Assembly: GCF_026151205.1 (NCBI RefSeq)
Contig: NC_087072.1
Span: forward strand, 3,865,375-3,929,374
DNA length: 64,000 bases
Origin: Bolinopsis microptera
Lineage: Eukaryota > Ctenophora > Tentaculata > Lobata > Bolinopsidae
Direction: 5' to 3'
A program made the translations under genes and the position numbers. The notes beneath the pieces are model-generated. The model was not told the DNA's origin. It worked only from the letters and a program-made list of their open reading frames with translations, and did not search any database. Of the stretch, positions 4,067-64,000 are shown piece by piece. The first letter of the stretch is position 1. Each line of letters begins with the position of its first letter.

Positions 4067-7000
4067 ATGGTCTGGAAAAATTCAATTTTACGGATCATCA
4101 TCTTCGTGAGAATAGCTTGTGAAGTTTCTAGTTTTAAATGTCAGACCTGCAACAGTGTGTATAAATTCGAGGGGAGACAGCAAATATCATCGGAACCAGG
4201 TACTGCAGGTTACTTGATGTGATATGTATAATATATTGTATACACATTGAATATTTTACATTGTACATACATATTACATATACACATTGTGTATATCATG
4301 AAGCTTAAACTACTCGTGTGTAGAAGACATGTATCCAATAAAGCTTACTTTAAGTACTTACTTCCTTGCGTCACCCGGTCATGATTAGTAATATAGAGGA
4401 CAATTAGTAGTTGTCACGTGATATGGCTGCAAATAGTGAAGAAGTCTGAGACTACCTGAGTAGAAGATAAAAGATGAAGCTGAAGAGGAGTTCTATTTCA
4501 ATTCAAATTGTTGCAAATTCATGACGTTTTATTTTTGGGGGGGGGGGGGGGGGGGGGGGGGGCCAACCATATTAAAGTATATTAAAATGTAGGATTTTTC
4601 CCGATTTTGACCCGGGGATATACTTTAATATACTTTAATATACAGGGTGGGCCAAAAGTCAGTACCCATACGTTGGCCTTTATAGCTCAGTCACTGAGTG
4701 CCCAATTTAAATACTTCTTTCTGGTATGACTTAGTACCACCACTGGTTCGAGGAATTTGTCAACTCGATAAATATTCGCGGTCATTTTTTTCAAATGGAG
4801 GTTCATTTTCACATTTATTTGATAGTTTGGATAATCGGATCAAGCTAAATGTTATTGAATTGTGTTTGGCCATTCGAATTACGTGTGTCCTGAAAGAATT
4901 AGAACTGTAGCTTCTCAGATGACCGAGATATGAAGCATAACGAGTTTATTCATTACGTGTGATCAGGTGATTGGTTTACCTAATCACGTGATAAGGTGCC
5001 CCGGTTAACTACCCCGTTAAACATTATGGGAATTAAGGGTGCCCAATTAAGGTGTCGTGTCACGGTGTCACATAATCACCCAGTCAATATTGTTAACGAG
5101 ATACAGAAAATGCTTGATAACTTCGTCATTTCTAATCTGTTTTGCCTCATGTTTTCAGATCATATGCAACATTTGATAATCTACCGTCTCTGAAAAAATT
5201 AGGCGTTCAGCATGTTCAGAGAAAAAAATATAGGTGTTTTAATATTAAATGGGCGTGGTCTAAAATATTCGAATTTTCAAATTTTGACGACGGAATCCTC
5301 GAACCAGTAAGTACAGTATGCCATCTGCAAAGCAACAGCTCTCAAATAAAAAACAAGGCGGAGCTATTAAGGCCAACGTATGGGTACTGACTTTTGGCCC
5401 ACCCTGTACTTTAATATATCCCTATCTCCTTGGAGGCCTACATCAAAAATTGTTGCCCAAAATAAGCTTGAAATGCAATTCTTAATCGATTCCAAAAAGT
5501 TCTTGAAAAAATATTGAAAACTGATGGAGTTATTTCAATTTTAATGAAGTCATTTTGGCTAGTATGCCGAACCGAGATATTATGTGCAATTTTCCCAATT
5601 TTGTTCATGGAGGTCTTTTTACTTAGTATCCACTATATTCAACAAACACTGAGTTATATCTTTCACATAGAATTAGTCTCATTAAAAAATATTGAAATTT
5701 TATCGAATTTGGGCAAAAGCGAATTTGGGCAAAAGCGTATGCCCAAATATGGGCATATTTTTTAAAGCTCATAGCTCAGCCAATTTTTGACCAATCTGGA
5801 TGGAAATTCATGTACTAGTCCTAAAACAGGCTTATCTTGCGAATCTGAGTGAAAAATATAGTTCATCATGTAAATCTTAACGAAGAATATAAATCTTCTA
5901 ATTGTAGGTATATTAAAGTATATTAAAATGTAAGATTTTTTCCGATTTTGACCCGGGGATATACTTTAATATACTTTAATATGGTTGCCCCCCCCCCCCC
6001 CTATTTTTGATGTGTAATTGTATTGCAGGCTGTCACAACACGACTTGCAACCCGGAGCTGTACGGGGACACTGAGAAGTGTTTCGCACTGGCGTACGATA
6101 AGATAGATAAAAGATTGAACACTCTGGTAGAGTCTCTGGAAGTAAGAGGCTGTCTGTGGCGAACCGAGCAAATGACAGCGGTTAGGAAGAACAAGAAAGA
6201 TATAAACGAGGATGTTCTAGTGCATTTCGAGAAGGAAGTGGCTTATCAAACTTTGAGCGATGTGCTCGATAATAAATTGAGAGGGTATGTTGAAACCAAT
6301 AGTGATTCTATATTTCATTTCTTATTCTTTGGCATTTCTACTTAACAGTTCTTGTTTGAAGTTTCCGTTTTGAAAGGGTGGTTCGACAGTGAACTTTTTT
6401 CTTCATGCCGTAAAAAAGATAGACTCAGAGCTAAATTTAAAATTTCTGGTTCTATTTCTGATGAGTTAAAGTTTGTTACTAGCCGTAAAGATTTTAAGAG
6501 GCTTTCATCAGCCAAAATAAGAGACAATCTTTTCAATAGTGATGATCCAGCGCTTATAACTAAGAAGTTTTGGTCACATGTTAAGTATAAATCTAACTCC
6601 TGCCGTATTCCTAATTGTGTTAGTTATTCTGGACAGCTTCGGTTCAAACCCAAAGCTCAAGCTGAACTTTTCAATTCTTTCTTTTATAACCAGTTTTCGG
6701 ATCCTTCACTTTATGACACTGACATCTCCTATGTCAATGATGTTGATTTTGATATTGACTTCGATCATCGGGATGTTCGTAAGCTTCTTTCAAATATTAA
6801 TTCAAATAAAGCCCAGGGACCAGATGGCATACACGGTAAAATTCTCAAAAATTGTTCCGTAGGTTTAGCTTACCCTCTAACATGCATTTTTCGTGGATCT
6901 TACAACAGCGGCTACATTCCACAAGAATGGAAACTTGCAAATGTTGTCCCAATATTTAAGAAAGGTAAGAAAAGTGAGGTTGAAAACTATAGACCAATAT

Positions 7001-9745: not shown

Positions 9746-9802
9746 TATGGGGTTCCAAGGGGGTGGTGATCATCATATTTTACCTGAAGTCTCATATGTA
9801 TG

Positions 9803-10390
9803 GCGGCCGAGATGGCTCACCTAAATTTTCACTGAAAATTTGTAATTTAAAAATTAATTATACAATTAATCACAAAATAAAAACGATTTTAAATTTGATT
9901 TCTAAAATTATTTTAAAATTTAAATTAAAAACGATTTTCATATTGAAATTAAAAACAATTCTCATTTTGAAAACGGTTTTGATTTCGATTTTGATTTTGA
10001 TTTTGATTTAAATTTTGATTTTGATTTCAATTTTGATTTTGATTTTGAAAACGATATTGATTTTGACTTTAAAAACGATATCGATTTTGATTTTAAAAAC
10101 GATATTGGTTTTGATTTTAAAAACGATATTGATTTTGATTTTGAAAACGATATTGATTTTGATTTTGAAAACGGTATCTATTTTGATTTTGAAAACGATA
10201 TTGATTTTGATTTTGAAAACGTTTTTGATTTTGAAAACGGTTTTGATTTTGAAAACGATTTTTATTTTGCAAACGATTTGCACGTACGTTTATATAGGTG
10301 AGCCATCTCGGCCACGCGCAAAAAAAACCATTTTCAAATTTGAAAATGAAAATGATTTTGTTTTGCGCGTGGCCGAGATGGCTCACCTAT
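9803..10390. repeat. Minisatellite with GGCCGAGATGGCTCACC ends, left arm
   Basis: The 17-mer GGCCGAGATGGCTCACC occurs at about 9804, inverted at about 10299, and direct again at about 10370. The first two bracket an array of ATTTTGATTTTGAAAACGAT-like units (9960-10270). The last two form a short hairpin around an AT-rich loop, with GCGCG next to the 17-mer. Exact mirror at 26326-26913. The 17-mer vaguely resembles a tRNA box A, but no B box follows. Confidence 0.8.
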
Positions 10391-11120
10391 ATGTACGTAC
10401 GTGCTGCGCCACGTTAATGATTTTAAAACGTATGCGCGTTCCATATTGACCGCTTTTACATATTCTGCATCAGAAATTGCCATATAACACGTGGGAATAT
10501 GGCTATAAATATATTTTGCAGTATAGATTTTGGAAAGTGCTTATTAACCCGATAAACTCAGTGAATGTCCTTGCTGAACGGTCTGTGAAACAAGGAACTG
10601 AAACTGAGGGGTCCCGTGCAGTGCACTATAATAGTGCAAATTACATTTATAAATGGCAAATTCCTTATATGTTTAATGTTGCGGTCACGAGTCATCTCTG
10701 CTACCTATTTACCGTGCCTCCCGATTTATCATACGCAGTGGTTTTTTACCGCATGAAATTCACATTAGACCATGCATGCATCTCCCTTTCCCCGACAAGC
10801 ACGGCTAATCGGGAGATAACTATAACACTAGTTACCATCAGCCATACTCTATGATCCCAATAAATTTCATGAGCGTTATCGTTCATTCACTACCCGAACA
10901 AACGGTACATCAGCGCAATATATATATATTTTTTTAAATATATTCTATTTAATTTGACCAATTTTACTTTTGATATAACAGCACCTTTAAACTTAGATTA
11001 GAATGAACAACACCTTCATTATTAGGACAAAATAAATCATAAATAGTATTTAACAGAATATCAAAACAAACACACTTCTCCGTGCATTTTGGGTGCGCTG
11101 CAGACTATATGTCAAAAATA

Positions 11121-11366
11121 ACATAATTGGTACGATTTGGGAGCAACACGGCTCTAGGCAACTCTGTTGAAACTTTGAAAGGATAAGTGAAACGATACGA
11201 ATTTGGATTAAATTTAGATCAAAACCGACATTACGGCACGTATTGACCTCACTTCAGGTCTCATTATACCTCTGTGTAAGGCCAATACGTGCCGTAATGT
11301 CGGTTTTGATCTAGTTTTAACAGAGCTGCCTAGAGCCGCGATGCTCCATAATTGTACCAATTATGT
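11121..11366. mobile_element. Foldback MITE, left arm
   Basis: About 246 bp, nearly all inverted repeat. It starts ACATAATTGGTACGATT and ends with the reverse complement (with mismatches). A perfect inner pair, GATCAAAACCGACATTACGG and its complement, surrounds a short loop. It would extrude as a long hairpin. No coding capacity. Mirrored at 25350-25595. Confidence 0.75.
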
Positions 11367-11700
11367 ATCTAACTCACGCTTGGCCCTCCATGAACATTAC
11401 ACATATATTTCAAAATCCAACCCTGCTAAAAGGAATTTAGTTTGCGTTATATATTAAAAGTGGATTGATTTTTTAGGAGTACCAATTTTAAATTAATTAA
11501 TAGTAGATTTAATAACACACTCAAAGGTTAAAGATAACCAAATCACAATTTAGATCGGTGATTTGAACGTAGAGTACCATTTAAATTACTTAAATTAAAA
11601 TGAATACTTAAAATAGTCAAATAGTTCCACAGCCGCTTGCTGATTATTACAAAACTGGCTTCTCGAAATCGTTTTAAAAAACACTGTTTGCAAAGTGCTA

Positions 11701-12062
11701 CTACTGTCTTCGACTTCTGACGTCGGTTCGCACCAGGGTATAATGGCGTCTTAAATCTGCTATCTCAAGATCCTGAAAACATTAACCATACGTAATTATA
11801 TTGAAACTACATTTTTTATAATTGACCTGGACCACAGATACAACAATCAACATTTAACAACTCGAAAATATATGTCAAGAAATTAAGAGAAATCCGATAA
11901 ATGTGGATTACACGGTTATCGCACGGTTACCTCTTTGTAATACTGGATCAATGATGCCTCAACAATCTCGGATTGAAACGTAAGACCAATGCTGGTATTT
12001 TCAAGCTCCGAATGTGCGGTCACCAAGTCTTTTTCCTCCTGGCTTAAATGGATGCCACACTC
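11701..12062 (-). CDS. Two terminal exons of an unidentified gene, left-arm copy
   Basis: Reading the minus strand, 12062-11931 (132 nt) is bounded by TTTTTCACAG and GTAACC, and 11772-11701 (72 nt) by TGTTTTCAG and a TAG stop. Both keep one frame, giving 67 codons: an acidic segment with HLSQEEKDLV and SEIVEASLIQYY, then a basic tail with IADLRRHYTLVR. I do not recognise the family. Upstream exons were not found in the arm, so this looks like a captured 3' gene end or part of a large transposon gene. An identical mirror copy lies at 24654-25015. Confidence 0.55.
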
Positions 12063-12842
12063 CTGTGAAAAAAGATAATATTAAAGCCATAATATAACCG
12101 TTAAAGTCCTCTCTATGATATATATTATGTGCACTATTACTGTAATTTCATTCCTCGAACTAAGCTGAATCTCAAACACTAACCATGCCACTTATTAACA
12201 GCGATTGTTCAATTTATACTTTTATACAACTAATTTACATTTAATGCAACTTTTATTTTCCACCTGAAGTTAAAAGATTATAACCAAACCTTTATTAACA
12301 CGGCAAAGAAGATAATGCAATGTTAATAAACAAAAATCTGCCATATATTCTACGGCTCAAATACTCAAAAATCGGCCAAATTTGCTGTTATTATATTGGA
12401 CTGATCATATAAGCTGTGTTATTCGTTATTGTTGTGGTCGTTCATCCCACCACGTGGTATTCTTCCGGTTATAGTCATTCTCCGCTCATGCTAAGTTATA
12501 AGTAATTGGTTATCTTTTGCAACTGTTAACAATTGTCAATATGGTTGAATTGATTCATGGATATAGCAATATATTATATAACAATTGAATATGCTATACA
12601 ATATATGTACCTCGATATACCACTTTCATGATCTCATCATGCAGTGCAGTGTGCCGTGTTCATAGGCAAACTTAAGTAAATAGTACATTTATCGTTTCCC
12701 CTGTCAAGCACGGTATATCAAGGATTTAATGTATAGAATATCCCAAAGAGTACCTATATCGGTCATATCGGCTTGGCATCTAGGAACATATATAAGCTTC
12801 GATATTACACGCTATCTTGTTGTCCAACATTGTATCACACAA

Positions 12843-13008
12843 CACTACACTACACTACACTACACTACACTACACTACACTACACTACACTACACTACAC
12901 TACACTACACTACACTACACTACACTACACTACACTACACTACACTACACTACACTACACTACACTACACTACACTACACTACACTACACTACACTACAC
13001 TACACTAT
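12843..13008. repeat. (ACACT)n microsatellite, left arm
   Basis: A perfect pentanucleotide array of about 33 units. All three frames stay open because the unit lacks stops, producing spurious Thr/Leu/His/Tyr frames. The right-arm partner (about 23698-23874) is roughly two units longer. Confidence 0.95.
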
Positions 13009-13093
13009 TTGAGAAATTATAAAATAATTAATAAGGTCATAAACCGATTCGGTTCAGTACAGTTCTATAACGTTGGTATTATAGTATAATATA

Positions 13094-13191
13094 CAATCAA
13101 ACCTCCATTAACCAGGCCCCAATTTAACAGAATCCCCAATTTGGCACTTTTATTCATTTACTCAAAACCACGGTGAATTGAGGTTTGACTG
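13094..13191. mobile_element. Pogo/Tigger-like MITE, left arm
   Basis: A 98-bp element with ends CAATCAAACCTCCATT and AATTGAGGTTTGACTG, flanked by TA on both sides. The CAGTCAAACCTC-type terminus is characteristic of pogo/Tigger-like elements. Mirrored at 23515-23612. A lone related end occurs near 56746. Confidence 0.65.
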
Positions 13192-13571
13192 TATTATATG
13201 GCATCGTTCGCTAGTATTTAAACATAGAAATATAGCGTCCCAAAAAATTTATAGATTCAGCTAACACTGGATTTATAGATTCAGCTAACACTGGATCTAA
13301 TTTAGGAGTTCATTAGATAAACCATATCACGATATCACGATTAGGTTAGACTGTCTATGCTTTTCGGGACCCTATAGTTCATTCATTAAAAAACCACCCA
13401 CCCCAAGCCACGTGGAGGCCGATCTACCGTTTGGGGCTCACGGCTAATCTTGGTGGTGGTGGTGGTGGTTGTGGTGGTAAAAGAGCATACAAAGCCCATT
13501 TTTAACAACTTGAAGATTCTTGACTCGGTTAGTAAACATGCAAGCTTGGGAAATCCAATCAACTCCGACAA

Positions 13572-13850
13572 CTAGGAACCAATCATGACATATCCCCGAC
13601 AACTAGGAACCTCTGGAGATACAGCAACTGGGACAAAGGCGAGAAACACAACCAGCCTTGCGGCTCTAGCAAACTTCTTATCAGAATAATATAAAACTTT
13701 AAACTTCTTCGAAATGTTCCTCTGAAACAGCTTGACAGAGATGGAAGTAGCAATTGCTAATCTCCCACCCTGGCAAACTGTTCTGAATCGCATTCATGAC
13801 CGCTTTCTCAAAATCAATCATTATTGTACCAGTTTGTGGTGGTGGTGGTG
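13572..13850 (-). pseudogene. MULE transposase fragment, left arm, frameshifted
   Basis: The minus strand carries the DFEKAVMNAI...CYFHLCQAV core of a Mutator-like transposase. Relative to the right-arm copy there is one extra base near 13723-13726, which breaks the frame. About 80 bp containing a GGTGGT tract and AACTTGAAGATTCTTGACTC is directly repeated on both sides (about 13450 and 13840). Confidence 0.6.
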
Positions 13851-14300
13851 GTTGTGGTGGTAAAAGAGCATACAAAGCCCATTTTTAACAACTTGAAGAT
13901 TCTTGACTCGGTTAGTAAAGCGAAGTTCTAAGTTTAAGAAAAAAACTGTACATTTATATTAATATATTTTCTGGCTCTGCCACATCGTCAAAACTTGATA
14001 CATCTGATATTGCAATTTCAATTTCAAATGGTTTACAGCTTCACTTATATCATAAATAAATAAATATAAAGTTTACATGAACTTGAAGTGACCTGAAGAG
14101 TGAAGGAGCCTCTACAAGATTCATGATCTCTTAACGGGTGCCCTTCATAATATTCAGTACACCTGCCCTGAGCTAGCTCCATACATCATAAACATATATC
14201 GAGAACCTGCAAGACTGGTAATAGCAAGGACAGATGAGGAGATCTTAAGTGAAGAGGGTGTTACACAAGGGGACAATTATAGTGCAGGGACAATAGTGCA

Positions 14301-15590
14301 ATGGCCAAGTATTCCTGCTCTCTCATGCCACTAGTCCAAAATGTGTCATCAACGGGTATAGCCATAGGAAAAGATGACGACATCTCCAACATTGCTAAGA
14401 GGGAGCCTCAACTAGCATATGCTAGGTACATCCATGGACTTTCTAAGCGGTGGAACTATGTCTGTCGCACAACTCCAGACATAAGCAACAGATGGAAAGT
14501 AGGAGTCACCTTTATTCCAGCAGTATTAGACCGAATATTTAATTGCCCTGATATAACACAGAAGATCTTTGCCTTACCCTGCAGAGATGTGGGCCTGAGT
14601 ATATACGATCTGAGCCAGACAGCTGATCTTAAGTATGAATACTCACTCTTTGCCACAGAGAATCTTACTGATGCAATCTTAAATCAAGTATCAGAACATA
14701 CAGAGAATCATCAGAAGGCTGTTGAAGTAAAAGCTGAAATTTCGAGAAGAAGACAGCAGTTCTACAAGCAGAAACGTGAGGAAGTTCTACCAGAGCTTAA
14801 CCAGATACAGAAGCTTCAGCTTGATCTTGCAACAGAAAAGGGGGCAAGTTGCTGGTTAACATCACTCCCACTGCAGTCTTATGGATACTCATTCAACAAA
14901 AAGGAATTTAATGATGCTTTGGCCAAAGATATAATCTAAAAATCAAGGATACTTCAAGAAAGTGTGTCTGTGGAGAAACCAATACTATCAATCATCTCAT
15001 CTGCAAGTATGCAAGAAAGGTGGTTATGTAAACCTGAGACACAATTCCCTCAGAGATGTCATAGCTGAACTGATGCAGAATGCGGGATGCAGAGATGTAT
15101 GTGTGGAACCACCGTTGTTGCCAGTCAAGTTACCACCAGGTGCAAACACAGCAGAAGTAGCACGCTTAGATGTTAGTGCTAGAAGTGTTTTGAGCCTGTA
15201 AGAGAGCATTTTTTGATATTAGGGTCTTCCATGCCCCTGCACCCTCTAATCAAGCTTTGAACACTATAGCCAACATGTACAAGATCCATGAGAAACGAAA
15301 GAAGACTGCGTTTAACGCCCAAGTGTTGGAGATCAAGAGAGGTACGTTTGCACCAGTGGTTTTATCTACAACTTGTGGTATGGGGACGGAAGCCCAAGTT
15401 CTTACAAAAAGACTTGCAGAAAAAATGTCTACAAAATCTGGAATGAGATATTCAGATACCATCACTTTCTAAGGAAGAGGATCTGCTTTGATCTCTTATG
15501 AACCACAATCATTGCTCTACGTGGACGTCATGGAAAACGAAGAAGTGCTCCAGATGAAATAGAAGCACTGGATATCGATTGATTAGTAGC
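14301..15590 (+). pseudogene. Retroelement protein, C-terminal region, left arm
   Basis: Three consecutive frames read as one degenerate protein: 14301-14939 (212 codons; LAYARYIHGLSKRWNYV and KGASCWLTSLPLQSYGYS), then a Cys-rich CVCGETNTINHL...KGGYVNLRHNSLRD block with EPPLLPV, ANTAEVARLDV and FFDIRVFHAPAPSN, then HEKRKKTAFNAQVLEIKRG and LSTTCGMGTEA. I recognise this as the C-terminal half of a reverse-transcriptase-bearing protein common in invertebrate genomes; the exact class is uncertain. A frameshift near 14930 and another near 15195 break it. No polymerase core is present. Mirror: 21121-22406. Confidence 0.65.
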
Positions 15591-15982
15591 TCTTTACCAA
15601 AATTATGAGTGAATATTCCCTCAAAAAGGAGCCAATCACTCATGGTGTATTCAAATCAAGAGTAAAAAAAGTTATTCTCTCATCCTAGGGTAAAGGTGAC
15701 AAGAATATCTGGGCCCATTTGGCAAACTTCCTGAACTCAGGCAGCTTGAACGACTAAATTTGAAAAGCAAAAACTTCATGTCTGAATGAATTATTAGAAC
15801 CATATAAAAGTAAAGTGAAGTAAAGTACAAATTATGACATAACATCATCACACATGTCTACAAAGTATCAAATCACTATATGGAAAAATATAAATATCTT
15901 ACCACCAAAATCAATAAATTATTAACTACAACTTTATTAAAAAATTTCAAATAAGTTCAAAAAGCATCCCCAAAAGATAACC

Positions 15983-17561
15983 CTATTCATACTTCCCAGT
16001 GGAATAAAGATTTATAAATCGCTTTTTTGCCACAAAAGGGTGGAAATAAAGATAATCGTTATGCTTCTCTTTATTACTAACATAGCTAGGTCCTTCAATT
16101 CTCCCTAATACTTCATTTGAAACATTCCAAAAATGTGAATCATTAGAAATATCCTTAGCAATCATATCTTTTTAAACCCTTCTAATTTAATCTTAAAACT
16201 TAAAACAGTCACCGAGTTCTTAACATCTGGAGGAAGTTTGTTCCAGTAAGGAATAACTCGCTCTGGAAGAAATGAACTTTGGAGATTCCTAATCTTTGCC
16301 ATACTCTTACAACATCTGTTGGATGATACAAGATTAAGACCAGATCTGCTCACTTTGAACAAATCTGAGCCGTACTCGGTTAAACCATTAATAACCTTAA
16401 AAGCTTCAATAAGGTCCCCACGTATTCACCGCTCTGCCAGGGTTGTCAAATTGAGAATTTCCAGTATACGGTTGTAAGGAAGAGTACCCACCTCATTAAT
16501 AAGACGGGGTAAACCGCCTCTGGACGCTCTCCAGCTCCAAAACAATCCCCAAACTTCCATGAGCCGCAACTGGATTCCACAATTGGTCACAATACTCTAA
16601 ATGAGGTCTTATTAAAGCTTTATAGATGGTTATCATAACTCCTTTTTCCCTTATTACTAAATTTCTTATAATCCAACATATCATACGATTTGCTTTAGAA
16701 ATGCATGCTTTTATCTGCTCATTCCAAAGCAAGGAGTTATGGGTAATAACCCCCAAGGGTTTTACACCCTGGAGCCAAATCCAACGCTACTCACAACACC
16801 CCAGCAAAGATGTACAGCAAGCATGAGAGAGAGAAAGAAAGGAAATATGGAGACCGCTGTGTACAGATTGAAAAAGGAACCTGCAATGGCCTTCAAGTAT
16901 TCTCGACCACCGGAGGTATGGGCCCACAGGCTACCATGTTCCTTAAACGAGTAGCAACACTTCTGGCAGCCAAGACCAGCCAGGACAAAAGCCTCATTAT
17001 GGCAAATCTCAGACGTCGTTTGCAGTTTGAGCTACTTAAGGCAGTATTGATTGCAGTGAGAGGACACAGAGGACGGTATTATGAGAAAGCAATACCTGTT
17101 GACGAACTGGACCTAAATCTTGCACAAACCACCAACGATGAAGACAGGGGTGATGATGTTCATGATGAAGATGATGAAGTTGATGATGAGGCTGAGAATG
17201 TAGAGGAAGAGGTTTCAGAAGAGTGAGCTGAAAAGAAGACAAGTTTCTATTCTAATTTATTGATTATTATATTTATTGCAATAAACATATAATATTCATT
17301 ACTCCAGGAGTGATGACAGGATATAGAAAAAAATAACCCCCCAGTCTTTTTCCTGAGCAGATGCTTCAAGTTTTATACCATTAACAAAATTTAAGTTAGG
17401 ATTATTATTAAGATTAACATGAACTACTTTACATTTGGCAGGATTGAACTTTAAAAGCCAAATACTCTCCCAAACTTCCAATTCTGCAATATCATCAGCA
17501 ACACTCTTATGTTTAGCCGCATTACCAATCAGCTTAAGATCATCAGCAAATAATTTTATTT
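15983..17561 (-). pseudogene. LINE reverse-transcriptase fragment with nested insertion, left arm
   Basis: Minus strand: a catalytic-box remnant FADDLKLIG at the spacer edge, then VWESIWLLKFNPAKCKVVHV, an interruption, then NEQIKACISKANRM, IRPHLEYCDQLWNPVAAHG and a long C-terminus ending FVAKKRFINLYSTGKYE. This is the palm-to-tail part of a CR1/Jockey-type LINE. The break is a 577-bp insertion at 16755-17331. Stops and frame changes elsewhere mark it as dead. Confidence 0.7.
16755..17331 (+). mobile_element. 5'-truncated retroelement tail inserted in the LINE, left arm
   Basis: Encodes HEREKERKYGDRCVQIEKG, FSTTGGMGPQATMFLKRVA and an acidic tail to a stop near 17226, then a 3' region with AATAAA and a terminal A-run. 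The protein is homologous to, but distinct from, the last part of the 14301-15590 fragment. AATAACCCCC directly repeats at 16745-16754 and 17332-17341, the target duplication of target-primed reverse transcription. Confidence 0.75.
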
Positions 17562-18271
17562 TGTAATAAAATGTCACAAAAGGAGCAGACCTTAAAGGAA
17601 AAAGTAATAAGTATATGATAAAAACGATGTGAAAAAGTATGAATGGGTACTCACTACTCCACATCAATGAGAATACATAAAAACAACAAGTAATAAAATT
17701 AAACGTCAGAAAAGTAACCAAACAGAGTGCAAAGGGGTTACGAAATGCAACAATAACGCAAAAAACTATTATGAATTCTTTTGAAAATATGACAGTATTT
17801 GTGTAAGCGCTCGATTTTCATAATACAATGTGAATTTTCTAAACTTTGCGCGGCGCACCTAAAATTTTGGTTCCACTTAAAATTAATTTTTTGCTCATAA
17901 TTGTATCTAATATATTTAAACTAAATGTAATTACAAGATACATGGTTTAAAAATTTCAAAATACAGCAGCTAAGTACAAAAAATAAAATGCGCGCAAAAA
18001 GCCTAAAATTTGACCACTTTTTTTGATTTTTACCCAAGGAAAAATGAAACTATTTCTTTTATTTTAGTATCATTTTGTGCGGTTATGTTCGAGCTATCGT
18101 TATGCAAATTTTGGTGATATTTCAACGAAATTAACTTGCTCAAAAGTTCAAAAAACATGGTTTTTTGGCCCAACAATCAGTTTTTTGCGATTTTACCCGG
18201 GGAAACTCAGTCCAATCATTTTTTCTTATTTTTGCTGTATATAAATGATTTACCTGATATAGTTAAGAATA
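17562..18271. other. Palindrome spacer
   Basis: About 0.7 kb of AT-rich, non-mirrored DNA between the arms. It ends on each side at the same point of the LINE fragment (next to FADDLKLIG). No gene seen. Confidence 0.7.
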
Positions 18272-18501
18272 AAATAAAATTATTTGCTGATGATCTTAAG
18301 CTGATTGGTAATGCGGCTAAACATAAAAGTGTTGCTGATGATATTGCAGAATTGGAAGTTTGGGAGAGTATTTGGCTTTTAAAGTTCAATCCTGCCAAAT
18401 GTAAAGTAGTTCATGTTAATCTTAATAATAATCCTAACTTAAATTTTGTTAATGGTGTAAAACTTGAAGCATCTGCTCAGGAAAAAGACTGGGGGGTTAT
18501 T

Positions 18502-19075
18502 TTTTTCTATATCCTGTCATCACTCCTGGAGTTGTGAATATTATATGTTTATTGCAATAAATATAATAATCAATAAATTAGATAAGAAACTTGTCTTCTT
18601 TTCAGCTCACTCTTCTGAAACCTCTTCCTCTACATTCTCAGCCTCATCATCAACTTCATCATCTTCATCATCAACATCATCACCCCTGTCTTCATCGTTG
18701 GTGGTGTGTGCAAGATTTAGGTCCAGTTCGTCAACAGGTATTGCTTTCTCATAATACCGTCCTCTGTGTCCTCTCACTGCAATCAATACTGTCTTAAGTA
18801 GCTCAAACCGCAAACGACGTCTGAGATTTGCCATAATGAGGCTTTTGTCCTGGCTGGTCTTGGCTGCCAGAAGTGTTGCTACTCGTTTAAGGAACATGGT
18901 AGCCTGTGGGCCCATACCTCCGGTGGTCGAGAATACAAGGCCATTGCAGGTTCCTTTTTCAATCTGTACACAGCGGTCTCCATATTTCCTTTCTTTCTCT
19001 CTCTCATGCTTGCTGTACATCTTTGCTGGGGTGTTGTGATTAGCGTTGGATTTGGCTCCAGGGTGTAAAACCCTT
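18502..19075 (-). mobile_element. 5'-truncated retroelement tail, right arm
   Basis: Mirror of 16755-17331, flanked by GGGGGTTATT at 18492-18501 and 19076-19085. The encoded HEREKERKYGDRC frame is on the minus strand (18607-19020) and ends in acidic Asp/Glu repeats. It has lost one codon relative to the left copy (GTCNGLV region). Confidence 0.75.
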
Positions 19076-19270
19076 GGGGGTTATTACCCATAACTCCTTG
19101 CTTTGGAATGAGCAGATAAAAGCATGCATTTCTAAAGCAAATCGTATGATATGTTGGATTATAAGAAATTTAGTAATAAGGGAAAAAGGAGTTATGATAA
19201 CCATCTATAAAGCTTTAATAAGACCTCATTTAGAGTATTGTGACCAATTGTGGAATCCAGTTGCGGCTCA

Positions 19271-20149
19271 TATGATCTGCTGGATTGTAAGGAACTTAGT
19301 TATTAGAGAAAAGGTTGTAATGATATCTATTTATAAAGCTTTGATAAGACCTCATCTTGAGTATTGTGTTCAATTGTGGAATCCAGTTGCGGCTCATGGA
19401 AGTTGGGGGACTGTTTTGGAGCTGGAGAGCGTCCAGAGGCGGTTTACCCGTCTTATTAATGAGGTGGGTACTCTTCCATACAGCCGTAGACTGGATATAC
19501 TCAATTTGACAACGCTGGCAGAGCGGCGAATACGTGGGGACCTTATTGAAGCTTTTAAAGTAACTAGTGGTTTGACTGAATATGGATCGGGTTTGTTCAG
19601 AATGAGCAGATCTGGTCTTAATTTAGTTTCAACCAATAGATGTAGTAAGAGTGTAACTAAAGTCAGGAATATTCAGTCTTCTTTTCTTCCGGAGCGAGTC
19701 ATTCCTTATTGGAACAAACTCCCTTCAGATGTCAAGAACTGCTCGACAGTTTTAAGCTTTAAAGTTAGATTGGAAGGATTTAAGAAAGAGATGATTTCTA
19801 AAAACAGTGTAAATGATTTTTATTTTTGGACTGTTTCGAATGAAGTTTTAGGGAAAATTGAAGGACCGAGTTATTTAAGCAATAAAGAGAGACATAATGA
19901 ATATCTTTGGTTTCATCCTTTTGTGGCAAAGAAGCGTTTTATAAATCTTTATTCCACTGGGAAGTATTAATGAATTATTTATAGATAATGTATTAGATTT
20001 TATTAGTTAAAATTGAATTTATTAAATTATTAATGTTGATGGAAAAGTATATTTATTTAAAGTATTTTTCTATTTAGTGCAATGATATTTTGTAGACACT
20101 TGTGATGATGTTATGTCATAATCTTTACTTACTTACTTACTACTTACTC
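19271..20149 (+). mobile_element. LINE 3' end inserted only in the right arm
   Basis: A 5'-truncated copy of the same LINE family, from an ICWIVRNLVIREKVV block to a stop at 19970, then about 180 bp ending TTACTTACTTACTACTTACT. It interrupts the sequence GGCTCATGG that is continuous in the left arm, with CTCA(T) at both borders. Because the left arm lacks it, it either arrived after the arms formed or was removed from the left. Confidence 0.7.
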
Positions 20150-21120
20150 ATGGAAGTTTGGGGATTGTTTTGGAGCTGGAGAGCGTCCAGAGGCGGTTTA
20201 CCCGTCTTATTAATGAGGTGGGTACTCTTCCTTACAACCGTATACTGGAAATTCTCAATTTGACAACCCTGGCAGAGCGGTGAATACGTGGGGACCTTAT
20301 TGAAGCTTTTAAGGTTATTAATGGTTTAACCGAGTACGGCTCAGATTTGTTCAAAGTGAGCAGATCTGGTCTTAATCTTGTATCATCCAACAGATGTTGT
20401 AAGAGTATGGCAAAGATTAGGAATCTCCAAAGTTCATTTCTTCCAGAGCGAGTTATTCCTTACTGGAACAAACTTCCTCCAGATGTTAAGAACTCGGTGA
20501 CTGTTTTAAGTTTTAAGATTAAATTAGAAGGGTTTAAAAAGATATGATTGCTAAGGATATTTCTAATGATTCACATTTTTGGAATGTTTCAAATGAAGTA
20601 TTAGGGAGAATTGAAGGACCTAGCTATGTTAGTAATAAAGAGAAGCATAACGATTATCTTTATTTCCACCCTTTTGTGGCAAAAAAGCGATTTATAAATC
20701 TTTATTCCACTGGGAAGTATGAATAGGGTTATCTTTTGGGGATGCTTTTTGAACTTATTTGAAATTTTTTAATAAAGTTGTAGTTAATAATTTATTAATT
20801 TTGGTGGTAAGATATTTATATTTTTCCATATAGTGATTTGATACTTTGTAGACATGTGTGATGATGTTATGTCATAATTTGTACCTTACTTCACTTTACT
20901 TTTATATGGTTCTAATAATTCATTCAGACATGAAGTTTTGCTTTTCAAATTTAGTCGTTCAAGCTGCCTGAGTTCAGGAAGTTTGCCAAATGGGCCCAGA
21001 TATTCTTGTCACCTTTACCCTGGGATGAGAGAATAACTTTTTTTACTCTTGATTTGAATACACCATGAGTGATTGGCTCCTTTTTGAGGGAATATTCACT
21101 CATAATTTTGGTAAAGAGCT

Positions 21121-22406
21121 ACTAATCAATCGATATCCAGTGCTTCTATTTCATCTGGAGCACTTCTTCGTTTTCCATGATGTCCACGTAGAGCAATGAT
21201 TGTGGTTCATAAGAGATCAAAGCAGATCCTCTTCCTTAGAAAGTGATGGTATCTGAATATCTCATTCCAGATTTTGTAGACATTTTTCTGCAAGTCTTTT
21301 TGTAAGAACTTGGGCTTCCGTCCCCATACCACAAGTTGTAGATAAAACCACTGGTGCAAACGTACCTCTCTTGATATCCAACACTTGGGCGTTAAACGCA
21401 GTCTTCTTTCGTTTCTCATGGCTCTTGTACATGTTGGCTATAGTGTTCAAAGCTTGATTAGAGGGTGCAGGGGCATGGAAGACCCTAATATCAAAAAATG
21501 CTCTCTTACAGGCTCAAAACACTTCTAGCACTAACATCTAAGCGTGCTACTTCTGCTGTGTTTGCACCTGGTGGTAACTTGACTGGCAACAACGGTGGTT
21601 CCACACATACATCTCTGCATCCCGCATTCTGCATCAGTTCAGCTATGACATCTCTGAGGGAATTGTGTCTCAGGTTTACATAACCACCTTTCTTGCATAC
21701 TTGCAGATGAGATGATTGATAGTATTGGTTTCTCCACAGACACACTTTCTTGAAGTATCCTTGATTTTTAGATTATATCTTTGGCCAAAGCATCATTAAA
21801 TTCCTTTTTGTTGAATGAGTATCCATAAGACTGCAGTGGGAGTGATGTTAACCAGCAACTTGCCCCCTTTTCTGTTGCAAGATCAAGCTGAAGCTTCTGT
21901 ATCTGGTTAAGCTCTGGTAGAACTTCCTCACGTTTCTGCTTGTAGAACTGCTGTCTTCTTCTCGAAATTTCAGCTTTTACTTCAACAGCCTTCTGATGAT
22001 TCTCTGTATGTTCTGATACTTGATTTAAGATTGCATCAGTAAGATTCTCTGTGGCAAAGAGTGAGTATTCATACTTAAGATCAGCTGTCTGGCTCAGATC
22101 GTATATACTCAGGCCCACATCTCTGCAGGGTAAGGCAAAGATCTTCTGTGTTATATCAGGGCAATTAAATATTCGGTCTAATACTGCTGGAATAAAGGTG
22201 ACTCCTACTTTCCATCTGTTGCTTATGTCTGGAGTTGTGCGACAGACATAGTTCCACCGCTTAGAAAGTCCATGGATGTACCTAGCATATGCTAGTTGAG
22301 GCTCCCTCTTAGCAATGTTGGAGATGTCGTCATCTTTTCCTATGGCTATACCCGTTGATGACACATTTTGGACTAGTGGCATGAGAGAGCAGGAATACTT
22401 GGCCAT
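21121..22406 (-). pseudogene. Retroelement protein, C-terminal region, right arm
   Basis: Mirror of 14301-15590; the first 212-codon frame (22406-21768) is identical at protein level in both arms. The middle and last frames show a few substitutions, for example KSHEKRKK against KIHEKRKK. Same frameshifts, so the inactivating changes predate the mirrored state or were homogenised. Confidence 0.65.
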
Positions 22407-26913: not shown

Positions 26914-26923
26914 CATACATATG

Positions 26924-46900: not shown

Positions 46901-49900
46901 AGAGTATAATATCTTTTCTTAAAAGCTATTTCCGTGACAACCTGTCGCAGTTAAATGGTGAAAAAAGTAAACCATATGCGCGAACTTTCGAGAAGACTAG
47001 GATCAATGACCTGTAATTAGGTGAACACGTGTTTACCACATGTTTAGGGTTTACCACATGTTTAGTGTTTACCACATGTTTAGTGTTTACCACGTGTTTA
47101 GGGTTTACCACGTGTTTAGTGTTTACCACGTGTTTAGTGTTTACCACGTGTTTAGGGTTTACCACGTGTTTAGTGTTTACCACGTGTTTAGGGTTTACCA
47201 CGTGTTTAGTGTTTACCACGTGTTTAGTGTTTACCACGTGTTTAGGGTTTACCATGTGTTTACGTTGGAAGGTCACCAACAGTGGAGCACACTTGACTGA
47301 ATCCAGATATATAAGTTAGTAAGTTCGTGATATAATTTTACAATCTCTTCAATCTGAATGAATGTGAGAAATTCATACTACTTTATTTTATACTTTAAAT
47401 AGTTTTTTGCGGAACCAACCCCAGCGAACTTTGGGTTCCGAACAGAAATTTAGGCTTATCTAAATCTTTTGCTTTTATTTCATCGAACGTATAGGCAATT
47501 GTAACTTTATAATCAGTAAGTGGCATTGCTAATTTAGCGTCGATAACATACAAATTACTTACATTTTAAGAACATCTGTCATGATAATTACTAAAAGGAA
47601 AGGCCCGAGAATTCAAGTTTCCACACTGATGCCTCTGTTACAGTTGGTAAACTGCTTACCCAAGCTAGTAAAGTAGTGACCTTCAAATCATTCTTATCTC
47701 TAATAATCCTGGAGTTCTTGAAACAAAAATCTCCAATGTTTTATTTCAGTTAATTAAATATGATGCCGAAGGACGCTGTGAATGATAGCTAGCTGTTATC
47801 CATTAAGCTGATTAAGAACCGAGTAAAGGCAACTACCACCCTGTTTTCCATAATAGTTTGTGGACTACTATCTAGTACTCATTACCAGTATTAGCAGCTG
47901 CTGGGCACATGTCTCTTCGAGGTAAAAATATGCGCATTTATAAACTTTATTTAATTAATGGCTTGTGAGCATGTTTGTTGAGAAACGTTAAGTGAAAGTG
48001 CTGGTGACGATGAGAAAGACCATAAACCAGGGATTCCTTCGGGAGCATGTAAGATTATATCCAAAGTTTGTTCGCCAATGGGGTGTGTCTGGGTGTCAAA
48101 GATCTTCAAGGTGGGTGCTACTTGTGATGAACTCTAGAAGGATGGGATGGTAATACTCGGTCTGGCCGTCTGGAAGCCCATAGAATTCCAGTTCAGAAAC
48201 CGAGTAAGGATGTGCGGCTACTGAGAAGCGTCCTTAAAGTTTATTTGGGTTAGAAACGACATCTGGGTCCCTATCCTCGCACAAGATTATTCTCAATTTT
48301 CTTGTTGTGTTCCACAAATATGAGGCCGAAGGACGCTGTGAATGTTAGCAGCTGTTATATAAGCTGATTAGTACGAGTAAAGGCAACTACCACCCTGTTT
48401 TCCATAGGGGGGGGGGGGGGGGGGGTCCAAGGGGAACTTTGGGGAGTTTTGGGGAACTTTTTTTTGGGGAACTTCAGGAAACCTGGGGGACTTTCCCAAA
48501 GTTCCCCAAAAAATTATCAATGAAACAAATAATTTTGGGGAATTTTGGGGAACTTTTTTTTGGGGAACTTCAGAAAGTTCCCCAAAATTCCCCAAAATTC
48601 CCCAAAGTTCCCCAAAAAAATTATCATGCCAAAAAAAATTATCATGCTGCAAGTATCAACAAGTAAGTTAAGATTATACTTTATAATAACACTAGAAAAC
48701 CCGTGGTCACAGGGAGGAAGCTAATATTGATAGTATTTTTTGTTAGTAAGTTTAATCTCATCAAAAAATATCCTACAAAACCGAAGATACAGCCCATTAA
48801 AATGTTGCTTGTGCTAAACACAGCGTAATATCAACAAAACCGATCAAAATGAAGTTAAAACAATCATTGCACGTGCACGTAACAACCCTCGTTACCATGG
48901 TTACTATGCAACTTCTTATTCCTCGTCTAATTTGCACGTGGGCGGTCGTAAAGAAATAATTCTTTGAATTATAGTAGAGATACATGTTAACATTAATGGG
49001 TATTAATGTATATTAGAGAAATTTTGAATAATTTTGAATAATTTTGGGGAATTTTGGGGAGTTTTGGGGAACTTTTTTTTGGGGAACTTCAGAAATCTTG
49101 GGGGACTTTACCAAAGTTCCCCAAAGTTCCCCTTGGACCCCCCCCCTCCATAATAGTGTGTAGACTACTATCTAGTACTCATTACCAGTATTAGCAGCTG
49201 CTGGGCACATGGTCTTAACGTATAAATAGCGTGTAATAGCTCAAATACTTAAGCAGTACTCATGTCACCAGTCCAGCTATTCCAACGATTAACACGTTAG
49301 TCTCTTTCAATCGTGTATCAAACTACGAGCTTTTAGATCGTAGGCATTTGTTTGTGTCCACACTAATTTCTAGGTGAGCTAAAGATGCACTACAATATTA
49401 GTAGTAAGAGTAGAGAGGCTAGTAAGCTAAATAATACTACTACTAGTTACTGTTAGCAAAACAGATCATTTATCCGTTTCTTTGTTTTATAAAATAAGTT
49501 TATTACAGGAAAAATAAAATGATCGACAACACATTGGTAAAGGTAACCAAAACAAACACCTGTGCTGCTAAAGAGTGTGCTAATTGTTTTATCGTGGTTT
49601 TGAAAACGAATTAACTTAGCACAAACCGTGCACAAACTGTAAAGTGTAGACCGTGAACGTGTTATTTTGCATACCATTCATATCTCTTCGAGGTAAAAAT
49701 ATGCGCATTTATAAACGTCATTTAATCAATGGCAATGTGACTTGTGAGCATGTTTGTTGCGAAACGTTAAGTTGATTAGATTGGTAAATCGTTGTCACGT
49801 GTCAGAAAAAAAGTTGATTCACCTGTACCTTCCCTCTTGCAACCAGGTCTATTTAAATACGATTTCATACGCTTGGCCAGTTTATAATCGAACCATCAAA

Positions 49901-55291: not shown

Positions 55292-58200
55292 CTAAAGCTG
55301 AGCTAGTTCGTTACTTACCCTAATAAGATCCTCAATAATAAAATCTACATCTTCCACAGTGTTGTGAACACCCAGGCTGACACGAATAGAGTTCATAGCT
55401 ACTTCATACGAGACCTGCAAATTACATTGGTTATATTGGAATTGGTTACGATACTAATTTATTAGATACATACACGGAAATTACATTAATTTTACATTAG
55501 GTAAATTGTCACAAGCTTATCATAAGCTTGGCGATATACATCCCCAAAGATTTCTACTCATAAAATTCTCAAACTTGAAATTTCTCATTACTAGCTTTCA
55601 TTCCGGAGAACATATTTCCTATATTACGTTTGTACTCGAATATTCCTCCCGATACGATTTCTTGATGTACAAATTGTACATGTTATATATTTATAGATTT
55701 TTCCGAAGACTATTCCGTGGCTTTACTCTATGAGTCGTAAGATTAACGTTACAAGTACACTCAGAATTGAGTTGGATCCGATACGAGATTGGGGACGGGT
55801 CCTTTAAGTATAAACAAACAATGAGATACGATAAGAAGAACAAAGGTGCCCCGAGGGATTTTGTCCAAGTCACTATTCTGGCCACAGAAATTTCACTCCA
55901 CGGCCTGGTAATATTCAGCATCAGATAGTAATATTCAGTAATATTCGGTAATATTTGGTAATATTTTGTAATATTCCTGGTATTTCTCCATCTTATCCTG
56001 GAGGAAGGGCAAAGGAACTTAAGTCAAGCTTGAGAGTTGAGACTGAGTTATATAGTACTACTGAGTTGCCACTGTAATGAAACTCTTGTAACTGTAACTT
56101 CTAACTGACTCTAATGAAACTCTTACACACAATTTTTTGTCACTGGAGAGTAAATCGTCTTAATTTAAAGAAATAGTTGAGTATAATATGCTATGCTGTA
56201 GCTGTGTGCATATTCTTATGCATATCCCACACTTACGGTTATTTATATATTTGGCTTAATAATCCTAATATTTATGCACACTGAGCTTACCTATATAATA
56301 TATTATATACATGACAAACCACACACGACCTCAAACCATTACCCACAACCATGACCATTAGTTTGATTTAAGGTTACTTGCAGATGATAAGGACAGTGAT
56401 TTACCAAATAAGGCAGACTGCAAGGGTCCCTACCTACGAGCAACGGCCTTGCTGCTCGACAACTGACAAGGGCCCAGTGCCCTATCTCAGCGTCACGTGA
56501 TAAACCTGACATCCTGAGTTTGGTGGGCGACATATAAAGAATGACAAAAAAGCACTGGTTTGTATTACAACTCACCCCTGAGTTAAGGAGGATCTGGGAT
56601 GGTTTAGTAGTTGAGTGGCTGTGACATGCTGCTCCCTTACTTGCAATGAACTGGACTCCTTCCAACACGTTTACTGACCTGTAACAGGAACAACTTGTTA
56701 GCTGCTAAAGGGGGGGGGGGGGGGGGGGGGGGGGGCTGCTAAATACAGTCGAACCTCCATATACAGGGCACCTCCATATACATGGCCTCTTCTTTCCCTT
56801 TTACTCTTTTAGTATTGAAGTAATTCTATTATTGACCATATTTCAACATATTATGTTCTCGAAGGTAAAACTAATCAGTTAAAACTTGGCACTTAGTTAG
56901 TGCTTTGTGATTAATCGTGAGCCGATCCGACATCCAGAAAGGCGATATCGGCAGATAATCTGCGTGGAAATTCTGGAGGAAATTTGTATACCTGACCTTT
57001 TTTAGGGCACAAGACACCTGAAAATTGTGAGGAGGGAAACATTGATCTGCGATGAAACTTAAAACTTTCTGGATCTGGGGTTTCCATGCAGAACACTCAG
57101 AACACACCCAGAAGTTAAACCGTCCAGAAAAATTAATCTCATCAACTTTCTGAGGAGTGTTGAAGAGGACAAAGGATTAAATTTCCTACACTAATACCAG
57201 GTTAATTTAGTTAACACATATCAACCATAGGCTTAACGCGTCATCTCGTATCAATTACACACACACTTTTACTAACAGGTGTGGTAACTAGGATGTAGGA
57301 GAGATTTGGAATTTTTTCAAATTTGTGGACGTACAAAAGTATAAAATTATAAATTGTTGTTGTTGTTTGTTTTTTTTTCAAATGAAGGTTCATTTTCGCA
57401 TTTATTTGATAGTTTGGATAGTCGGATTGAGCTAATTTTTTTTCATTGTTCGCTTGGCAGAAATCCGTTTTTCAGCCATATTTCCGAAAATAAGCATTTT
57501 AAGGTATATTTTGCTTCATAAGTTGTATATCAATATGGCTATTAGGTACTTTGGTGTATCGGAATAGTTTCTACGACTTTTCCGGGCGGAAATGCCAAAA
57601 AGCACAGAAATTATGAACTGCGTCAAGCCGAAAACCGTTTTTTCAGCCATATTTCCGAAAATAAGAATTTTAAGGTATATGTTGCCTTGATCGTCTGATC
57701 AACTGTTGCCTGACTGTGGCCTAGCACTTCAGCAATATTGATATCATATTTTTTGATGGGAAAAGGATGAATTACTCGGAGACTTGAAGGCTTTCGAGGG
57801 CCAAATTAAAACTTATAATTCGATTGAAAATAAAGTGACAGAGAGAATAACTGGGTCCGTCCTAATCTGGAAAAGGACTGCGGAGACTGTGCGGAAAAAT
57901 GTTTACATAGACAGCATATTTACTATTTAGCATAACTAATCAGTATTTAGCATGAAGTATTTACTATTTAGCATAAAAATTCCTTATAGTTATTCCATGG
58001 TCAATTAAAAAAAATTCACTATAAGTTGCCAGTGGTGAAACGTACCTATATTAACGGGTGATAATCTTGGCAAAAATCGGTTTTTAGCCATATTTCCGAA
58101 AATAAGCATTTTAAGGTATATGTTGCTTTATAAGTTGTATATCAATATGGCTATTAGGAACATTTTGGTGTATCGGAATAGTCTCTACGACCTTCCTGGG

Positions 58201-62008: not shown

Positions 62009-63870
62009 CTGGTAACGTCCTTACAATGAGACTGTTTTAGTGAAACAGTTCTTTAAAACTCATTCATTTACACACAACCACAAAGTTTAAAATTTCCTCG
62101 CAGACCAATGTTCCCCCTAAAATTTTCTAATATACCCTAAAAAAGGTCCTAGGTCTTCTTAAACTTTCCTTTTTCGCACCAAATTTCCTTACAGATTATC
62201 TGCCGATCTGCTGTCTTTCTGGATGTGGGTTAACTGGGCAATCATCTAAATTTTCCTTATAATGGAATCTGTGATTCAGTAATTTATTTGTGATTCATTT
62301 GTGAACATTAATTTCTTAATATGATATAATATATCTGCTAAATACTTCAATGTTGTAAAATACTAGTTAATTGGTTTGGTAACGCCAATTATGTTTTATA
62401 ATTAATTCCTGAACTTTTGTAACATTCCTGATCAATAATTGTGTAACATGATATAGAAAACTGCAGAGATAAAGTACATACGATGTAGATTGTACTCACT
62501 AATAGGCAAGAATTTGCAAAGCTAAAGTTACCATGAAACTGTGATTTTCACTTTACATGCGGTGCTTGACTAAGTAGCGTACGTACGCGGTTTAATTGAA
62601 TAGTGACTTTAACGAGAAAGATTGCGGTGAATACCCTACATATTATGTTTTCGAAACTCCACACTTGGTCTAAGTAACTGCTAATTGTTATTCAACAAAG
62701 TATTAAAAGTAAAATTAGTGTACAGTGTATTAGTGTATATCAAATAAAGGGTAATATAAAGATGTCCAAACTATGCAAAATATGCAAAATACAGCTGCAC
62801 TGATTTTATTGTTATGCAGGGTGTTCCAATCAAAGTGAGCTTTACTGATGAAACTCAGGAATTCAGACGGCATACTTGAAGTTACGATCCCTGAGTTTCA
62901 TTTGCATACTCTCTTACTGTCGTATGAGAGTATGAACTCTCTCTACAGTTCAAACAGACCGCAATGAGTGCCTCCCCCTAATAAGCTTATAGTATTACAT
63001 AACAGTGAATCTTGCGGCTAACCTAATTATGATTTATGTACCAACGCTGCATATTATGTAGTAATGTGAGGGAGCGAGGGGGGAGAAAAAGTGAGTCATT
63101 GTCACATTTGTGGTACAAAACCATCAATTAAACCACTTACCACCGGCCGATTAAAAAAAATTTGCTTGTTGGCAATTTCGGAAATTTCCCACACACACAC
63201 CCACACACAGATTTACTGGGATTGTTAGTATTGATACATGACGTCTTGCATATTTGGGGACATTTAATATTTGGGGACATTAACATTTTAGGACATTTAA
63301 TTATTTAGAATTTAAAATATCTCCAGTCAGGACACTTTCAAACCATCTTGTACCTGACATGACATGACATGACATAACTACGTTTTCAAAATACACCCAA
63401 AAAAAGTCTTGTTAAAACAAAAAAACAAAAAACAAGAAGAACGGTTCTCCTTGTTAAAACAACAAAAACAAGTGAAATCGGCTGTCATCATCGGTTGGGG
63501 TGGATATTTTTTCCCGATCCATGACTCAAAGTGCCGAAGGCACAAAAGAGTCAAGGACAAGGGTTAGCGAACGAGGTTTTTTTTTGTATATGGTAGCTTT
63601 GCGACCGTACCTGCGAGCGACCGTACCTGCCTGCGCGCACACACTGTAATCGCCCACGTGACTACCTGCGCAAAGTTATTTTGCGGAATAATCCAAATTA
63701 GCTAATTGTTGGCGCGCGGCGCTGAACTGACCAAGTACATTGTTAATTTCACCATGTACATATCCCACTAGGCACTAATTGATAGCATACTATTATTATT
63801 TTGAGTTACTTATACTATTTTGCACGCATCCGTGTCGGGTGTCAGGTTGCATAAACAATAAGCATATGGT
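62009..63870. other. SCLY intron DNA
   Basis: No SCLY N-terminal exon is visible. Contents: an inverted copy of the dispersed repeat (62100-62230), a single inverted-repeat-like end GCAGGGTGTTCC at about 62818, a CA-rich stretch at 63190-63207, and AT-rich DNA. Confidence 0.5.
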
Positions 63871-64000
63871 GGGGGGAATGCAACGTCAATTAATGTCAAT
63901 TAATGTCAATTAATGTCAATTAATGTCAATTAATGTCAATTAATGTCAATGTCAGTTTTGCAAAATTTTGGAATACTGACATTAATTGACACGATATTTT
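63871..64000. mobile_element. Possible poly-G-headed element cut by the window end
   Basis: Six G followed by AATGCAACG and then about seven TGTCAATTAA units (63884-63948), and an inverted ACATTAATTGACA at the edge. G run plus short-period subterminal repeats matches the other poly-G elements, but the right end is outside the window. Confidence 0.4.

Follow-up and report, generated by a model that had tools for sequence, protein, structure and literature searches.

In this study, we analysed a 64,000-nucleotide window (C1:3865375-3929374) of the 264.65-Mb assembly of the comb jelly Bolinopsis microptera. The window holds four complete insertions that begin with a run of G and end with a run of C, and the left part of a fifth whose right end lies downstream. 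The features are listed below in positions of the window, unless a contig or locus is named.

4537-6001: Element 1; G26 at 4537-4562, C14 at 5988-6001; flanks TATTTTT at 4530-4536 and 6002-6008
~4569-4641 and 5910-5982: hairpin units of Element 1, in direct orientation
4643-5406: nested TIR element in Element 1, CAGGGTGGGCCAAAAGTC...GACTTTTGGCCCACCCTG, TA on both sides, read directly
29558-33196: Element 2 (family 2); G8 at 29558-29565, C9 at 33188-33196; flanks AACTT(G) at 29553-29558 and 33197-33202
~29570-29632 and 33122-33184: hairpin units of Element 2
30197-30673, minus strand: open reading frame of 'protein A' in Element 2, 158 aa from stop to stop, a fragment of a larger protein
31767-32785, plus strand: decayed remnant of a LINE-type endonuclease/reverse transcriptase in Element 2, open piece 32286-32651
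42414-44665: Element 3; G25 at 42414-42438, C13 at 44653-44665; flanks GCTATT at 42408-42413 and 44666-44671
~42443-42499 and 44579-44636: hairpin units of Element 3, which has an internal GAGGAGGACTG array
45271-45350, minus strand: paralogous empty site of Element 3, ...CCAGCGCAAAATTTTTGCGCTATTACTCGTCAGCTAGCGCTGG, single GCTATT
48407-49146: Element 4 (family 4); G19 at 48407-48425, C9 at 49138-49146; flanks TCCATA at 48401-48406 and 49147-49152
48431-48510 and 49046-49125: hairpin units of Element 4, 94% identical, direct
63870-64000: left part of Element 5; G6 at 63871-63876, 10-bp repeats GTCAATTAAT; flank ATATGG at 63864-63869
C1:3930062-3930067 (end = L061:67): right end of Element 5, C6; flank ATATGG at L061:68-73

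We take the nested element in Element 1 to be a mariner-type MITE, and we read the LINE-type remnant in Element 2 as cargo or an insertion. Element 3 sits inside an older inverted-repeat element (42000-45724) with arms of 366 bp that are 99% complementary, 20-bp units CGACAACTAGCGCTGGATAG and an 8-bp direct repeat GAAAAGCA on its flanks (41992-41999 and 45725-45732). The right part of the older element keeps the target of Element 3 uninterrupted, and this paralogous empty site with its one GCTATT counts in support of the target duplications being real. Elsewhere in the window, a very large palindromic structure (9793-26923) has arm segments of up to 3.2 kb at 100% complementarity and LINE-like frames; it may have arisen by a recent inverted duplication or reflect a fold-back in the assembly.

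Tract pairs, target duplications and copies in the genome

The initial annotation had described four insertions sharing a G-run/C-run layout, and all four are real, each having inverted tips and being flanked by ~6-bp direct repeats. Their coordinates hold to within 1 base, the single shift being the start of Element 2 (29558, not 29559), but the count has to be extended by the fifth insertion, with tracts G6/C6, that starts at 63870. The short flanking repeats proposed were likewise confirmed: TATTTTT (7 bp) in Element 1, GCTATT (6 bp) in Element 3, TCCATA (6 bp) in Element 4 and, in Element 2, either 5 bp (AACTT) or, with one tract G counted, 6 bp (AACTTG). The repeat of Element 5 is ATATGG.

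All pairs of a G run and a C run of at least 7 that lie up to 40 kb apart were scanned in the window and 60 kb downstream of it (L061-L066; 124,626 positions, 626 of those unread), with thresholds of 10 for the TIR score and 5 for the flanking repeat. Of the 15 pairs tested, exactly four combine inverted tips with flanking direct repeats of at least 5, and these are Elements 1-4, the very insertions claimed, whose TIR scores are 15-16 of 16 after an offset penalty. The remaining 11 fall below both thresholds, and none of the 16 control pairs in C..G order reaches either threshold in the same scan. No further complete pair with tracts of at least 7 was found in the 60-kb extension; the G6/C6 tracts of Element 5 fall short of that length.

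Long G runs are common in this region. Homopolymers of at least 12 in the 124 kb comprise eight of G, two of C, one of T and none of A, despite the A+T-rich sequence, and five of the eight G runs lie outside element tips; counted with overlaps on both strands, the whole genome holds 76,833 G20 words. Solo G runs at 35160, 84797, 100328 and 102228 (the last three in the extension) have no flanking repeat of at least 5. The run at 84797 is part of another repeat, and in copies of that repeat nearby the G or C runs are short. At 56710-56735, a solo G26 lacks an inverted repeat, yet the 8-bp direct repeat CTGCTAAA is present on both its flanks. By eye, L016:1489-1556 consists of G32, 12 bp (ATTACTCATGAT) and C24 between 7-bp direct repeats AGTATAT, for which we offer the reading of a near-empty element or an abortive event.

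Copies of two of the families were collected from the genome. The left end of family 2 gave 55 matches and 155 first-look candidates, from which 40 places (the window's included) were scored and 30 loci fetched; both ends of one copy of this family were read only in the window. Family 4 gave 258 first-look candidates and 40 scored places (again with the window's) that are identical over 101 bp, and it is likely, judging from that identity, that this family multiplied recently. Twelve of the 40 were fetched, none dropped, and with the window copy make a set of 13. Equal 6-mers stand on both sides in all 13 complete copies, three of them requiring one tract base (CACACA, TGTGCG, CACTTA). The targets are TACAAA, AACACT, TTTACA, TAAGCA, CACACA, TCAATA, TGTGCG, AACAGT, TGATAA, TGTGTA, TATATA, CACTTA and TCCATA, and none of their 156 cross-pairings is equal. 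T is the first base in 9/13 and A the last in 10/13; at the fetched left ends of family 2, T nearly always precedes the G tract.

A TSYAAC-type tip pattern (14 letters plus B) has 425 sites in the genome (244 + 181), while its reversed control has 13 (5 + 8). The 425 sites pool copies of the families from which the pattern was derived and exclude any whose last position is A; TSYAAC itself is matched exactly only by family 2 and by a sixth element (L028+L083). Among the first 100 of the 425 sites (C1-C3), neighbours up to 15 kb apart are inward-facing in 26 cases, tandem in three and outward-facing in one, and the inward-facing pairs span 93 to 6,976 bp. The sixth element has TCCAAC after the tract at both ends, lacks a target duplication and is perhaps a recombinant; in all other elements read at both ends, the duplication is about six bases long.

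Tract length and architecture of the ends

For family 2, the tract pattern was present in 28 of the 30 loci and yielded 29 entries (L034 occurs twice), with L054 and L056, whose tips are changed (by eye 11 and 6), left out of the counts. Sixteen of the 29 tracts are exactly 8 long, one is 5 (this copy abuts another), one is 6 and the rest are 9 to 41. In the 13 copies of family 4, nine of the 26 tracts are 8 and two are 7, and G and C tract lengths within a copy show no positive correlation (r = -0.37, n = 13). Pooled over both families, 25/55 tracts are 8, four are shorter and 26 are longer (up to 41). In addition, the tip of Element 2 is readable as G7A and those of Element 5 as TG6A (left) and G6TG (right), i.e., as eight positions with point changes, and the G6 of Element 5 may accordingly be read as a decayed G8. 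Since tract length peaks so sharply at 8, the encoded tip is probably G8, and the longer runs would have arisen by later slippage; mononucleotide runs turn unstable near a length of about eight. On account of this sharp mode, de novo addition of C to 3' ends was rejected.

Inside the tract, the inverted sequence is at least 16 bp in Elements 1-4, and 21-31 bp in Elements 1, 4 and 5 and in family 4 at large. The hexamer that follows the G tract is TGTAAC in family 2, TGTCAT/TGTCAC in Element 3, TCCAAG in family 4 and TCCAAC at both ends of the sixth element, and Elements 1 and 5 show CCAACC/CAACCA and ATGCAAC, i.e., a one-base shift. The initial statement that the termini are unlike apart from the homopolymer is thus correct in that the families differ in sequence, but hexamers after the tract are related in several of them. 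Because of the tract mode of 8, the point-changed copies of G8, the inverted inner sequence and the related hexamers, the ends look sequence-defined with G8 outermost, and the description of them as unspecific homopolymer tracts is not supported.

These results bear directly on the proposal that no specific sequence is needed and that the G/C tract as such, perhaps in quadruplex form, is what the enzyme recognises. Only the G tract is shared by all families, and both the solo G26, with its 8-bp repeat in spite of having no inverted repeats, and the G32/C24 structure in L016 (by eye) would be consistent with such recognition. Against it are the mode of exactly 8, the copies readable as point-changed G8, the inverted tips and hairpins of all five elements and the four solo runs that have no flanking repeat, and we regard it as very improbable. 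Recognition of G8 as a quadruplex is not required to account for the ends; an enzyme may nonetheless contact G8.

The subterminal repeats differ in sequence between families and keep a period of 10 bp. Lag 10 was the best of 27 lags in 9/10 ends of the five elements (background 99/2000), the two ends of an element not being independent, so that these count as five families and not as ten trials. The exception is the left end of Element 3, with a best lag of 20; a peak at 10 was also obtained for the left end of the L028 element. TRF units of the five elements are ATATACTTTA, TTGGGTTTTT, ATGTCCGCCT, AAAATTCCCC and GTCAATTAAT. The period alone is not diagnostic, because other repeats of the window (42054-42396 and 55927-55976) have units of 10 or 20 bp as well. 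Locus L003, taken at first for a member, was rejected: it has no convincing inverted tip, and its period test peaks at lag 12.

Each end folds as a hairpin composed of an array, a loop of about 26-35 nt and the inverse array. In the loop, the direct match between both ends beats the inverted one in 5/5 elements; loop orientation is the same at 28/29 left ends of family 2, and in 13/13 copies of family 4 the direct repeat is 80 bp long at 92-96% identity, against an inverted tip of 27-31 bp. Scores for the whole ends (direct/inverted) are 136/46 for Element 1, 106/75 for Element 2, 100/103 for Element 3, 135/44 for Element 4 and 69/42 for Element 5, the even result for Element 3, which is clearly direct in the loop only, being due to its long arrays. 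The ends of the sixth element (direct 22, inverted 19) have no common unit. In four of the five elements, the ends appear to be direct repeats, their inverted look arising from the near-palindromic sequence of each repeat. To our knowledge, few described DNA transposons have ends that are both inverted and directly repeated.

Based on the above, the elements are likely to be non-autonomous DNA transposons with G8/C8-type tips and a target duplication of about six bases that are moved in trans by a DDE-type transposase, with a cut predicted at the eight-G tip and a six-base stagger. A transposase made elsewhere would bind the repeats, whose 10-bp spacing would place them on the same side of the DNA helix; this would explain how the sequence can drift from family to family without a change in spacing. 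The enzyme would cut at the tip, with G8 as a cleavage-proximal contact. The cut tip would then be joined to target strands staggered by six bases, and after insertion the tract would lengthen by replication slippage. Element interiors are diverse (LINE pieces, GAGGAGGACTG arrays, the protein A fragment), and such DNA would be carried along as cargo. The GAGGAGGACTG array is present, by eye, in both Element 3 and the L028 element, and pieces of protein A in both Element 2 and the L028 element. Recombination between ends and interiors, or their separate capture, may account for this.

An addition to this interpretation is that the elements are composites, in which two direct hairpin units of one family mobilise the DNA between them and the inner tips have decayed. 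Loops that are direct at both ends in 5/5 elements, the diverse cargo and a facing tip pair 93 bp apart, about one unit in size (by coordinates alone), all point in this direction, while by eye an inner G8 tip survives in none of the five. We therefore see a composite origin as conceivable, if on balance doubtful.

Candidates for an enzyme

The initial annotation had seen no integrase, which holds within the window. The six frames of Element 2 have no match in Pfam, Elements 1 and 4 have no frame of at least 120 aa, and those of Element 3 are of low complexity only. No member with a transposase was found among the copies read. The longest of the listed facing tip pairs span 5.4-7.0 kb (C2:9517932-9524907, C1:17760751-17767439, C2:14403956-14410451, C3:9185227-9191310, C1:15629339-15635133 and C3:3296829-3302204).

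Two coding regions of Element 2 were considered and rejected. The first, protein A, gave nothing credible as a transposase in Pfam or NCBIfam. Its frame has 116 matches in the genome: close ones in frames of ~158-187 aa, as is typical of family 2 copies, and distant ones, 26-44% identical, whose open frames measure 126-590 aa. Two long relatives among database proteins are both Bolinopsis microptera gene models (P0128 and P0129); beyond protein A, they look receptor-like (a weak 7tm match below the cut-off) and show a match to DUF3517 (FAF-Y ubiquitin hydrolase at source). We offer the reading that these models, which join protein A cargo to a receptor-like and a ubiquitin-hydrolase-like protein, are exonised or wrongly joined. 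The AlphaFold model of P0129 is poor (pLDDT 42). As a guess, the segment ...TSDACEQLYAFLRIG... of protein A may hold the last acidic residue of a DDE fold.

The second, the reverse transcriptase, is of a common metazoan LINE type (369 relatives) and was not retained as the elements' own gene. By eye, the remnant resembles the reverse transcriptase of L003 (Pfam: no match); such frames are, by eye, frequent in the 60-kb extension and L003 has no good inverted tip, and a link between families through the reverse transcriptase was likewise dropped.

Profile matches in the genome (the best 150 for hAT, the best 150 for rve and 20 for PolB) were compared with the 100 of 425 tips listed, on C1-C3. 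At a distance of up to 5 kb from these tips lie 1/37 hAT, 0/38 rve and 0/3 PolB matches; within 10 kb, among the matches listed for these contigs, the numbers are one, one and none. The single close hAT match (C1:4702499; a 256-aa frame, E 2.2e-5, 626 bp from the tip) is the weakest of the 150 listed, apparently lies inside a family 2 copy, and could represent cargo or point towards the enzyme. Movement by a hAT6-type transposase, i.e., a hAT with 6-bp target duplications, draws support from this match and from the hAT6 families with duplications of this length that are described in part of PMC12730594. Only that 1/37 lies near a listed tip, and the G8 ends differ from the CA with which hAT ends usually start, making a hAT6 source unlikely.

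Less probable still is that the elements are MITE-like satellites of Polintons/Mavericks, with the 6-bp duplication made by a Polinton integrase and G8 serving protein-primed slide-back. The duplication has the Polinton length as described in part of PMC10045372, and the genome holds intact frames of the protein-primed polymerase PolB (1245-1261 aa). A start in a G run would suit slide-back, by analogy with tectiviruses. Opposing this, none of the three PolB matches on C1-C3 lies within 50 kb of a listed tip, and L067-L070 (~4.4 kb each around four PolB matches, short of the termini) contain no G or C runs of at least 6. The initial annotation had pointed to the 6-bp duplications of Polintons; that length is indeed shared and polymerase frames exist in this genome, yet nothing was found at the listed tips that connects them with these elements, and we consider a Polinton origin quite unlikely. 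A route through relatives was also tried and rejected: in viral_contigs, the L070 polymerase has no relative and the family 2 tip is absent. Polinton-type PolB frames of 1261 aa occur in inverted pairs 8-11 kb apart (C7:6691702/6702995, C9:6595755/6606125 and C9:663553/671611).

Comparison with known transposon groups

Transposons are assigned to groups by the sequence of their tips and the length of the duplication. As in a non-autonomous TIR DNA transposon, there are inverted tips, a duplication of fixed length, many dispersed copies and no enzyme inside, with L028+L083 as the exception and with Elements 1 (7 bp) and 2 (5 or 6 bp) departing from a length of 6; an autonomous partner with these tips was not found among the copies read. 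The elements resemble MITEs in being short and multi-copy, in their inverted tips, target duplications and internal deletion variants, and in having no enzyme of their own. They differ from them in the G8 outer tip, in a direct end score above the inverted one in 4/5 and in the family-specific arrays of 10-bp period. Foldback-type elements (Drosophila FB, Galileo) similarly have ends made up of tandem repeats with short units (10 bp in FB), but they have 9- or 7-bp duplications, long inverted ends and no G8.

Groups with 6-bp duplications were compared from the descriptions given in parts of PMC10045372, PMC3706591 and PMC12730594. With Polintons/Mavericks the elements share the duplication (13/13 in family 4, three with a tract base, and Elements 3, 4 and 5), in contrast to their facing tips being 0.09-7 kb apart with no PolB at listed tips; neither a Polinton polymerase nor an integrase lies inside them, as would also be the case for a non-autonomous derivative. 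IS3EU/GingerRoot likewise have a 6-bp duplication and TIRs, but are described as ending in TA..TA, occasionally TG..CA (PMC10045372, PMC12730594, in part), whereas the outermost bases here are G and C tracts. Dada, in the description in part of PMC3706591, has no terminal inverted repeats, unlike the G8 elements with their inverted tips. Dada inserts into one kind of multicopy small-RNA gene; the 13 family 4 targets, compared as 6-mers, differ mutually. The hAT6 group has the same duplication length (PMC12730594, in part), and differs from the elements in tip sequence and in that no enzyme is tied to G8 elements. On these grounds, Polinton membership is not supported, IS3EU and Dada lack fit in their defining features, and hAT6 remains a candidate.

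Neither homopolymer-tipped transposons nor such elements in comb jellies were found in the open-access literature, judged by listings. The remark that no class is defined by homopolymer ends is borne out insofar as no described class could be matched from that literature, but the ends look sequence-defined, with G8 outermost. A G8 tip masks itself by growing, and automated curation may discard it as a microsatellite. Comb jellies branch near the root of the animals, and little was found on their mobile elements.

The best reading is that the elements work like a cut-and-paste TIR element and belong to an unassigned group. More tentatively, they might constitute a new superfamily of animal DNA transposons whose enzyme reads architecture over sequence, i.e., a G8 tip, 10-bp-spaced repeats in a hairpin of the same orientation and a fixed 6-bp stagger, with the letters free to drift. 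The kept 10-bp spacing together with the drifting sequence leads to a clear prediction on how such an enzyme would bind.
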